Shown here one piece after another: positions 6,971 to 54,456 of a stretch of DNA of 64,000 nucleotides. The translations under genes and the position numbers were made by a program. The first letter of the stretch is position 1. Each line of letters starts with the position of its first letter. Source of the stretch: Chloroflexota bacterium (GTDB taxonomy: Bacteria; Chloroflexota; Anaerolineae; Aggregatilineales; Phototrophicaceae); contig JACRPS010000021.1 in assembly GCA_016223085.1 (NCBI GenBank), forward strand, positions 62,001-126,000, in the 5' to 3' direction. The notes under the pieces are model-generated. The model was not told the DNA's origin and searched no databases. It saw nothing but the letters and a program-made list of their open reading frames with translations.

Positions 6971-6998
6971 GTAGGGACACGAGATATCGTGTCCCTAC
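6971..6998. repeat. Intergenic palindrome, 28 bp
   Basis: Near-perfect palindrome starting GTAGGGACACGA and ending in the complementary GTGTCCCTAC, with a slightly asymmetric centre. It lies in the 67-bp gap between the aldolase and the SDR and belongs to the same family as the copies at 3459 and 9383. Confidence 0.85.
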
Positions 6999-52359: not shown

Positions 52360-53349
52360 CTACTCCAGCGCCAGCGACCAGAGGTAATCCACCAGCGCCC
52401 AGGTTTCCTCCGGCGTGAACAGCAGCCCCCAGTTTGGCATATCCGTACCCATGCCGCCGCGCCGGATTTTGGCGTACAGCACGTCAGCACGCATGGTGAA
52501 CATATGCTGCGTATCACTGAAGGCGACCGGCGGCTGGGCGGTTTGCCCGGCCATGAAGCCATCACCGCCGCCCGTCGCGCCGTGACAGGCGAGGCAGTTT
52601 TTGGCATACGTCAGGGCCGCCTGCGCCAACGTTTCTGGCGATGCGCTGGATGTCCACAAGTAGGCGACCGCGTCGCGCAGATCAGTGTCAGATGCCGTTG
52701 GATTGCGGGTCGCCAGCAGCGCCACGCCCTGCGCCGGGCTGTGCGACCGCCGCCAGTTCACATCCTGTAGTTCAGGCGGGATGGTCAACGTTTTGACCAG
52801 CGACGCGCCCCGCTGTGCTGAAACAGTCATTTCTTGGGCGTGGCCGTGTGTTGCAGCGGCGGGTGCGTGAACGGCGTCAATGTCCACGCCTTCGGCCACC
52901 AGCGCCGCAATCACCGGATCGGTTTCGGTGACGGGTGTAGGGTTGGCCGGGTCAATCACCTCGATCACGCCGCGCATCCGCCAGTGATTGGGGCTGCACC
53001 AGGTATTGCAGTAGTAGGTGTAGCGCCCCGGACGGTCGAACGAAAGTGAGACTTCCTTGATTTTGCCCGGTATCACCGGCCCCAGGTCTACACCCAGACC
53101 GGGACCGATGGCGATGCCGTGCGGCAGATCAGTTGAGCTAAACCGCAGCGTCAGCTTTTGCCCGACCTGCACCTGGATGCTGCCCGGCTGGAAACCGCCG
53201 TTTTCGGCAATCGTGGCGTGAACATCCAGCGGGCCAATGCCATGCAGCGCCGGACGGACAGCCAACTGGTAGCCCAGCAGTAGCGCCGGGATCAGCGCCG
53301 CATAGATGAGCAGCACGACGCGAAACGGACGGTTGGCGGACAGACTCAT
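52360..53349 (-). CDS. Membrane-anchored CuA-type cupredoxin fused to cytochrome c
   Basis: The ATG at 53349 overlaps the stop of the upstream gene (TGATG) and begins 'SLSANRPFRVVLLIYAALIPALLLGYQL'; 329 residues. One membrane segment (10–29) is followed by a cupredoxin domain (40–135). It has His77 ('LPHGIA') and the CuA motif C114-x3-C118-x3-H122-x2-M125 in 'CNTWCSPNHWRM'. A His/Pro-rich linker (about 137–180) leads to a class I cytochrome c with heme-binding C252-x2-C255-H256 and a probable axial Met at 300 or 304. It should transfer electrons outside the membrane, similar to subunit II of heme-copper oxidases or a nitrous-oxide-reductase-type donor. No oxidase subunit I is nearby. It is the last gene of the copper-linked operon. 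Confidence 0.88.
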   Translation of the reverse strand: MSLSANRPFRVVLLIYAALIPALLLGYQLAVRPALHGIGPLDVHATIAENGGFQPGSIQVQVGQKLTLRFSSTDLPHGIAIGPGLGVDLGPVIPGKIKEVSLSFDRPGRYTYYCNTWCSPNHWRMRGVIEVIDPANPTPVTETDPVIAALVAEGVDIDAVHAPAAATHGHAQEMTVSAQRGASLVKTLTIPPELQDVNWRRSHSPAQGVALLATRNPTASDTDLRDAVAYLWTSSASPETLAQAALTYAKNCLACHGATGGGDGFMAGQTAQPPVAFSDTQHMFTMRADVLYAKIRRGGMGTDMPNWGLLFTPEETWALVDYLWSLALE

Positions 53350-53852
53350 CACGATACCCAGTTCGACCGAATAATCACTTCCTGTTGCGGTTTGACGGGG
53401 TCGTTGGTCAGCACGTGGACGCGGAACTCGTGCTGGCCTTCCATCCCTTCGTGCATGGTAAACCGAACGCTGACCGACGTTTCCTGTCCGGGCTGTAATG
53501 TCGTCGAACCGACGACCGCGCGGGGCGGTCAGCACCCTTCCACGAGTTCAACTCGTGGTTCACCCAGGAGGGTCAGCGGTTGATCGCCGATGTTTTTCAC
53601 GCGGAAAACAGTTTCGACCGGCGTGTTCATCCGCACGTCCCCATAGTCAAAAAATGCCTGATCAATGGCGGCGCTGGGCTGGCCGGACACTTCCGCCGTG
53701 TAGGGCGGCTGCTGGCTGCCCTGAATCAACCACAGCGCCAGTGCGATGATCGCCGCGCCGATACCAACCAGCACGGCGGGCAGCATCCAGGTCGGGCGCT
53801 TGGGTATGGGCGGCTGGACATTTTTAGAACGTCTGCGTTTGATGGTACTCAT
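53349..53852 (-). CDS. Candidate selenoprotein: membrane-anchored DUF1573-like protein with in-frame UGA
   Basis: ATG 53852 (AGGGA upstream); 168 codons if the internal UGA (codon 108, 53531–53529) is read as selenocysteine. A basic N-terminus and one membrane helix (about 23–44) precede an Ig-like domain: 'AAIDQAFFDYGDVRMNTPVETVFRVKNIGDQPLTLLGEPRVELVEGC'. After the UGA the same frame continues 'PPRAVVGSTTLQPGQETSV' and 'VRFTMHEGMEGQHEF', exactly what completes such a domain, and ends at TGA 53351–53349. That stop overlaps the ATG of the CuA gene. The site reads Gly-Cys-UGA-Pro-Pro. As I recall, relatives carry Cys-Cys-Pro-Pro here. Immediately downstream is a hairpin fitting a bacterial SECIS. 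A redox or copper role is likely. If not Sec, the gene is disrupted at this codon. Confidence 0.78.
53500..53516 (-). promoter_or_regulatory. SECIS-like hairpin downstream of the UGA
   Basis: On the minus strand, GTCGTCG-GTT-CGACGAC is a perfect 7-bp stem with the loop beginning 20 bases after the UGA, and GGT at the top. Bacterial SECIS elements lie inside the coding region with the loop about 16–37 bases 3' of the UGA and a G in the first loop positions. Confidence 0.65.
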
Positions 53853-53927: not shown

Positions 53928-53955
53928 GTAGGGACACAATATATTGTGTCCCTAC
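53928..53955. repeat. Intergenic palindrome, 28 bp perfect
   Basis: Perfect palindrome with half GTAGGGACACAATA. It lies 20 bases after the preceding copy; the two sit together inside the operon gap. Confidence 0.85.
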
Positions 53956-53969
53956 AGGCGATCTCGCCT

Positions 53970-54425
53970 CTATCCCTGTGGCATAACCGTGTCCGTAGAC
54001 GGCCCGAACGAGCTGTAAGTCGAATCAACGTAAGCGCGGATTTCCGTAGGCGAGCGCCCATCGCGCATCAGCCGCATCACATCCTGCGTGATGTCTACGC
54101 AGATGCCACAGCCGTCGGCGTGGTTGTCGTAAATCACGTTGCCGGCCTTATCAATTTCTTTCACGTAGCAGTTGAGATTACTTTTATGGCCCATGTTGCC
54201 GCAGCCGCAGTAACATGGCACGGTTTCCAGGGCGTGCGGGTTGGCAACGGCGAACTGATAGGCTTCGCGCACGCGCGGGGGCGCATCGCTTAAAAAGTCC
54301 GGCAGGCCGGAGGCGGGCGCGAGTGAATAGGGCGCAGCCGCTTCAGAAGCGGTGGATTGTCCGGCGCAGCCTGCCAGCGCCGCAATCAGCAGCAGGGCAG
54401 CCAGACGCACGATTTGATTCAACAC
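53970..54425 (-). CDS. PCYCGC-motif lipoprotein
   Basis: A GTG at 54425 is chosen because GGGAG lies 8 bases upstream; in-frame ATG 54431 and TTG 54440 are alternatives. 151 residues. A lipoprotein signal ends in 'IAALAGC' with Cys20 lipidated. The mature part contains 'VPCYCGCGNMGHKSNLNCYVKE', the defining motif of the PCYCGC family, and 'GCGICVDITQDVMRLMRDG'. The Cys-rich pocket could bind copper or another metal or carry disulfides; no function is proven. Its leader holds two CsoR-like operators. It is followed by the candidate selenoprotein and the CuA–cytochrome c protein, so a role in extracytoplasmic copper handling is a reasonable inference. Confidence 0.87.
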   Translation of the reverse strand: MLNQIVRLAALLLIAALAGCAGQSTASEAAAPYSLAPASGLPDFLSDAPPRVREAYQFAVANPHALETVPCYCGCGNMGHKSNLNCYVKEIDKAGNVIYDNHADGCGICVDITQDVMRLMRDGRSPTEIRAYVDSTYSSFGPSTDTVMPQG

Positions 54426-54456
54426 AGACATTTCTCCCAATAATGCATCAACAAAT

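Follow-up and report, generated by a model that had tools for sequence, protein, structure and literature searches.

A predicted Cys–Sec variant of the DUF1573 selenoproteins among copper-related genes of Chloroflexota

DUF1573 selenoproteins and the Cys–Sec variant

A selenoprotein family named OS_HP2 was placed under pfam07610 in the 2008 GOS paper, with the motif UxC (PMC2398784). A 2022 review gives a DUF1573 selenoprotein with the motif UGC (PMC9312934), and the 119-entry catalogue of a 2026 review lists DUF1573 with UGC only (PMC13188914), each as far as the accessible parts of these sources go. In its accessible part, the 2026 review gives separate subfamily rank to proteins that share a domain but differ in Sec position or motif, and its catalogue names several CU-motif selenoproteins, i.e., SaoL, SaoC, HgcA, MbdU, CopZ form 2 and KCU-star, which have a vicinal Cys–Sec pair and several of which are metal-related by name. 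However, these are set apart from the protein described below by their catalogue listing, which puts them under domains other than DUF1573 (PMC13188914).

The window, i.e., the whole 64,000-nucleotide stretch of DNA analysed here, carries on its minus strand, at 53349..53852, a putative selenoprotein gene for a membrane-anchored DUF1573 (ASH/PapD-like) protein of 167 amino acids with a predicted Sec108. GAGGG stands before the ATG of this gene, which runs from 53852 to 53349 with 167 codons plus a stop, and codon 108 (TGA at 53531-53529, minus strand; context Gly-Cys-Sec-Pro-Pro, GCUPP) is its sole in-frame UGA. An earlier reading made from the letters alone (the sequence-only reading) had described a DUF1573-like protein interrupted by UGA at codon 108, with the same frame continuing for 59 codons to a stop that overlaps the next ATG. 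These observations held. The 59 codons run up to the terminal TGA, whose A is also the first base of the following gene's ATG (TGATG), and the match to PF07610 (DUF1573) spans the UGA from residue 63 to residue 155, at 35.1 bits against a gathering cut-off of 26.1.

Cys107 is the only cysteine in the window protein. Its AlphaFold model (pLDDT 94) begins with a basic stretch and a helix at residues 23-44, followed by a beta sandwich, the predicted domain covering residues ~56-167; the basic N-terminus suggests that this sandwich lies outside the membrane, i.e., is extracytoplasmic. A structure search with the model identified the domain as an ASH/PapD-type Ig fold, the top matches listed being 2qsv, VesC, ciliary central-pair proteins and CEP192, at Z 10-13. 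The first of these, PDB 2qsv, a Porphyromonas gingivalis protein of unknown function, aligns over 105 residues (Z 13.3, rmsd 2.6), but with an identity of just 16%. A sequence search of the PDB with the window protein gave chiefly weak ASH/HYDIN-type matches.

The protein shares the DUF1573 domain and a Sec residue with OS_HP2 (NF041425), whose model it matches weakly but genuinely (32.7 bits, E 7e-8). However, this score misses the OS_HP2 cut-off of 100 bits; two copies reached 31.9 and 37.4 bits in a search of the phylum, and the OS_HP2 model gave no match over that cut-off in 301 genomes of the phylum. The motif differs as well, being UGC/UxC in OS_HP2, as taken from the published motif in the accessible parts of the sources rather than from an OS_HP2 sequence, and CU here, with no Cys two residues on. 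In the profile alignment, Cys107 falls in the column of the first Cys in the classical CGC, and Sec108 in that of the Gly, so that Sec would stand one residue on from that of the OS_HP2 motif. Membership in OS_HP2 was rejected, as neither the score nor the UGC motif agrees. The sequence-only reading had proposed a new selenoprotein, and the subfamily and the Sec position are indeed new, but DUF1573 selenoproteins as such were already catalogued as OS_HP2. Within the open full-text literature on selenoproteins and DUF1573, as covered by titles and the beginnings of abstracts, with subscription papers and preprints outside its scope, none of the records listed describes a Cys–Sec subfamily. Judged by its predicted sequence, the Cys–Sec DUF1573 protein is a new variant of subfamily rank, with a Sec position absent from the accessible part of the 2026 catalogue.

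Selenocysteine at codon 108

The spread of the UGA was followed across the class in 396 genomes, among them the window's own; 105 of the 396 match the protein at E 0.001. A total of 89 neighbourhoods were fetched for matches down to ~1e-13, while the weaker matches (E above ~1e-13), in nearly all of which no stop was reported, were not read base by base. The class count excludes matches with E >1e-20, i.e., classical DUF1573 domains and fragments, among them the second half at L137. The 89 neighbourhoods and the window hold 92 family genes (L095 and L137, at opposite ends of one contig, are possibly one gene counted twice), in which codon 108 is TGA in 84, TGC or TGT in 8, and never anything else. 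In a second, named collection, a pattern scan listed 80 loci of 175 relatives, with U in 70 and C in 10; 27 of the 70 U loci repeat class genes, and the listed loci add at least 43 U and at least 10 C genes to the first 92. Genomes of the phylum that lie beyond the class supply five further U genes (L222, L226-L228 and L230). The column at residue 108, which the sequence-only reading had proposed to inspect, thus holds TGA or TGY only, in the 92 genes and the 80 listed loci alike. That the TGA could be a misread TGC or TGT was also considered; since the TGA recurs in more than 120 other genes, sequencing error is excluded.

By their record titles, 67 of the 80 listed loci name Chloroflexota or its groups. 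The other 13, all U, are NC10/Methylomirabilota (L149, L150, L176, L196), Rokubacteria (L164, L169, L185, L211), Acidimicrobiia (L166, L188), an actinomycete (L209), 'Deltaproteobacteria' (L193) and 'Pseudomonadota' (L197), where single titles may be wrong because most records are metagenome bins. Among the matches listed in this collection, the nearest relative of the window protein is L189, 88% identical over 112 columns. U and Cys forms of the DUF1573 protein share one contig in two cases, as direct neighbours in L079 and at a distance of 3.7 kb in L124, and by accession one assembly holds both L167 (C) and L201 (U), as another does L143 (C) and L147 (U). A tree of 143 rows (90 of the 92 class genes and 53 new ones) over 115 columns, which is poorly resolved, requires 11 U/C changes, at least 7 of them on starred branches; the direction of change is not given by the tree. 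L222 is a divergent U form with SCUPQ that keeps the hairpin discussed below (GTTGTG GGGTC CACAAC), its loop GU displaced one base later, and is perhaps another branch of the family.

The bacterial SECIS is a hairpin just downstream of the UGA with G-U in its apical loop. Such a hairpin lies at 53500..53516 on the minus strand, with a 6-bp stem (53516-53511 with 53505-53500) and the loop GGUUC (53510-53506). Its first base in GTCGTC-GGTTC-GACGAC is the 13th past the UGA, i.e., the spacer is 12 nt, exactly where the sequence-only reading had placed the start of a 7-bp hairpin. However, the seventh, inner G-C pair of that description is not conserved: it is possible in only 51 of the 84 U homologues (48 G-C, 3 A-U), and the conserved element is therefore 6 bp with a 5-nt loop. 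Among the class U genes, 80 of 84 form all six pairs and the remaining four form five, with loop GU at positions 2-3 in 83 of 84; the 8 class Cys genes form 1-3 of the six. All 70 U loci listed in the second collection (80 loci listed of 175) pair 6 of 6; loop GU is present in 66 and replaced by GG in four, one of which is shared with the class set. Seven of the 10 Cys genes of this collection form 2 to 4 pairs, L170 and L172 form all six pairs but have lost GU (loop AGCUC), and L167 retains GU and forms five of the six pairs, the count taking the better of two registers, which can flatter Cys genes only. The stems of these last three are probably relics of a recent change from Sec to Cys. The innermost pair, an invariant C-G in the class, is G-C or A-U in the five U genes outside it, with the stem retained. 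Both features looked for in a bacterial selenoprotein were found, i.e., a UGA with Cys or Sec at the same codon in homologues and a SECIS hairpin with loop G-U.

Since the stem lies within coding sequence, a synonymous-codon null was also drawn. The observed mean of 5.95 of 6 pairs, with 95% of genes fully paired, compares with a mean of 4.79, a top of 5.01 and 17% fully paired in 1000 draws; equal codon weights gave 4.71, 5.05 and 14%, respectively. Covariation was measured on an alignment of 81 of the 84 U genes, from which L118 and L123 (3-nt insertion) and L137 (contig end) were left out. Paired cells amounted to 99.2% versus 89.5% in shuffles, cells changed on both sides to 69 versus 21.8, and the covariation score to 0.425 versus 0.228, none of the 500 shuffles reaching the observed value in any of the three. 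The other two of the five measures, i.e., pairs changed on both sides (3) and pair types (7), equalled the shuffles (500 of 500 as high). When the registers were slid along the alignment, at most 70% of cells paired. An example of compensatory change among relatives is ACCAUC/GAUGGU in place of GUCGUC/GACGAC. A single-sequence fold of the hairpin region in the window was not significant (z -0.82), and its predicted minimum pairs the first GUC elsewhere. Support for the predicted hairpin comes from comparison between genes, at a level that far exceeds chance.

The earlier proposal to look for the Sec genes in the same genome was borne out by the window's genome (6.03 Mb in 37 contigs, 97.85% completeness), which encodes selA (555 bits), selB (373 bits) and selD (368 bits), all above their respective cut-offs, together with a tRNA-Sec of 73 bits, over the family cut-off and with the ARAGORN anticodon tca. 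Rfam at gathering thresholds found nothing in the window but one tRNA. The selD of this genome (L048, G000:C35:83024-83959) itself contains one in-frame TGA and is thus probably a selenoprotein as well. A second GCU copy of the DUF1573 gene, 57% identical and with UGA at the same codon, lies at G000:C29. Across the class, a tRNA-Sec (best E 1e-10 or better, presence read by hand) was found in 56 of 64 genomes with the UGA gene versus 238 of 332 others (Fisher p 0.004), a test of little power, as tRNA-Sec is present in most genomes. The 8 UGA genomes without a strong tRNA-Sec are all fragmented drafts (69-93% completeness, 320-1450 contigs). Among the five genomes with Cys forms only, G326 (one contig) and G288 lack a strong tRNA-Sec and three have one.

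Two other readings of the UGA were weighed. In one, the UGA is a true stop, the product is a truncated protein of 107 amino acids, and the neighbouring CuA–cytochrome c gene starts early, at GTG 53535, as a result of gene decay or fission. The neighbouring frame is indeed open from this GTG. However, TGA occupies codon 108 in 84 of the 92 class genes and in 70 of the 80 listed loci, with conservation at the protein level beyond it, Cys is the alternative at that codon, and the hairpin covaries. A CuA-motif gene lies nearby at 44 loci, but only in the window and L052 does it stand directly downstream, with a start within 100 bases. This reading is very improbable, and the conserved TGA, the Cys alternative and the covarying hairpin refute it on comparative grounds. 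In the other, a recoded genetic code or ordinary suppression puts Trp or some other standard residue at the UGA, a reading with which the frame open on either side would agree. However, homologues without the TGA have Cys and never Trp, the gene ends on a TGA of its own, and the genome holds the complete Sec machinery. In addition, 17 other neighbour families, examined as a control that ignores TGA within 8 residues of the match end, contain an internal TGA only 4 times, in 3 places that by eye lie close to a match end; the neighbourhood genes are thus not simply rich in read-through stops. Reading as Trp was rejected, and this explanation as a whole is still less probable than a true stop.

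Taken from sequence comparison, insertion of Sec by the UGA at codon 108 is nearly certain, and the Sec at this position suggested by the sequence-only reading is backed by the conserved UGA, the Sec/Cys column, the covarying hairpin and the machinery. The UGA would be decoded by the standard bacterial route, i.e., by SelB with Sec-tRNA(Sec) at the SECIS hairpin 12 nt downstream, and the product would be a membrane-anchored DUF1573 protein whose extracytoplasmic Ig-like domain displays the adjacent Cys107–Sec108 pair.

Copper-related neighbours

The gene that follows on the minus strand, at 52360..53349, encodes a CuA-type COX2 domain (CNTWCSPNHWRM) fused to cytochrome c (PF00116 25.6 bits, PF13442 50.2 bits), with the CuA motif C-x3-C-x3-H-x2-M and a start that overlaps the selenoprotein stop. 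Upstream, at 53970..54440 on the same strand, lies a gene for a PCYCGC protein in its Cys form (PF13798 117.7 bits; NF041379 OS_HP4 72.1 bits, cut-off 90). Neighbours were compared in 90 neighbourhoods, the window included, many of which end at contig borders, with cluster names beyond Pfam assigned by eye. A CuA-motif protein occurs within 6.5 kb in 44 of the 90, for the most part on the same strand and 1-3.5 kb upstream, a PCYCGC neighbour in 47 (window included), either of the two in 58, and any copper cluster (CuA, CopA, HMA, multicopper oxidase or cupredoxin) in 65, all as raw counts from the family's own neighbourhoods. The motif is present in 71 of the 73 members of the CuA cluster, 42 of which have a CxxCH haem site in addition.

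The PCYCGC protein (CYCXC/OS_HP4, PF13798) has a different domain from the DUF1573 selenoprotein. Among the PCYCGC neighbours of U genes, 5 of 77 distinct genes have a UGA at HAxxUxxC, and 11 further rows fall outside the motif pattern, with Cys there by eye. The UGA forms fit the motif UxxC given for OS_HP4 in the accessible part of the 2026 review (PMC13188914). A plausible hairpin accompanies them, and the claim of Sec in these PCYCGC proteins rests mainly on the known family because their loops show G-U only in part. Such forms lie near a DUF1573 selenoprotein at L060, L082, L077, L157 and L059/L160, which would give two selenoproteins per neighbourhood.

Between the PCYCGC and selenoprotein genes of the window, at 53929-53954, lies a perfect 26-bp palindrome, TAGGGACACAATATATTGTGTCCCTA. 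A second copy at 6972-6997 of the window has 3 mismatches, and its 11-bp arms remain complementary. The palindrome is perhaps a small mobile or regulatory repeat.

Possible function and significance

In a conservation alignment of 68 of the 92 sequences, U and C forms alike, 12 columns are invariant, including Gly106, Cys107, Sec/Cys108, Pro109, Met133, Met137, Gly139 and His141. The second collection was located through the Met/His motif and hence gives no confirmation of its conservation; the divergent L222 is without this motif. Cys107–Sec108 together with Met133, Met137 and His141 may bind Cu(I) and hand it over or, alternatively, the selenol–thiol pair may maintain the thiol pair of a copper site in the reduced state; the beneficiary would be the CuA/cytochrome c protein encoded next door. 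The invariant residues and the gene context together put the odds of a copper or CuA-related role of the DUF1573 selenoprotein at about even. To the best explanation as a whole, i.e., Sec insertion in a protein whose Cys–Sec pair may serve a copper or CuA partner, we assign a probability of roughly 0.8.

A different function has to be set beside this one, in which Sec is inserted but the protein acts as a thiol–disulfide (selenylsulfide) oxidoreductase, or reacts with peroxide or metalloids, and the copper neighbours are merely co-regulated. A vicinal Cys–Sec pair can form a selenylsulfide, and the pair in this protein would be capable of it. TlpA-like, DsbD-like and rhodanese proteins occur nearby, at 5 of 90 loci each, named by eye except for rhodanese, and most uncharacterised selenoproteins are probably redox proteins according to the accessible part of the 2026 review (PMC13188914). 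However, simple thiol exchange has no need of the invariant Met133, Met137 and His141, the fold matches listed are ASH/PapD-like rather than thioredoxin, and the window protein has no further Cys, so that the oxidoreductase function, while possible, seems somewhat doubtful.

The copper reading can be put in a more specific form, which we offer tentatively: an undescribed subfamily in which Cys–Sec, two Met and a His make up an extracytoplasmic Cu(I) site that would load or protect CuA carriers, with Sec serving as a copper ligand in a chaperone, sometimes alongside a PCYCGC selenoprotein. A copper function is at present a promising lead rather than a finding.

The subfamily is common in Anaerolineae and, by record titles, would have spread to Methylomirabilota/Rokubacteria and Actinomycetota. 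With well over 100 such genes in public genomes, gene callers that halt at UGA would truncate them, and the hairpin supplies a clear SECIS for Chloroflexota. What Sec gains over Cys can be asked with the many Sec/Cys pairs that occur naturally, in some cases in a single genome, in a subfamily that connects selenium with a probable extracytoplasmic copper context.
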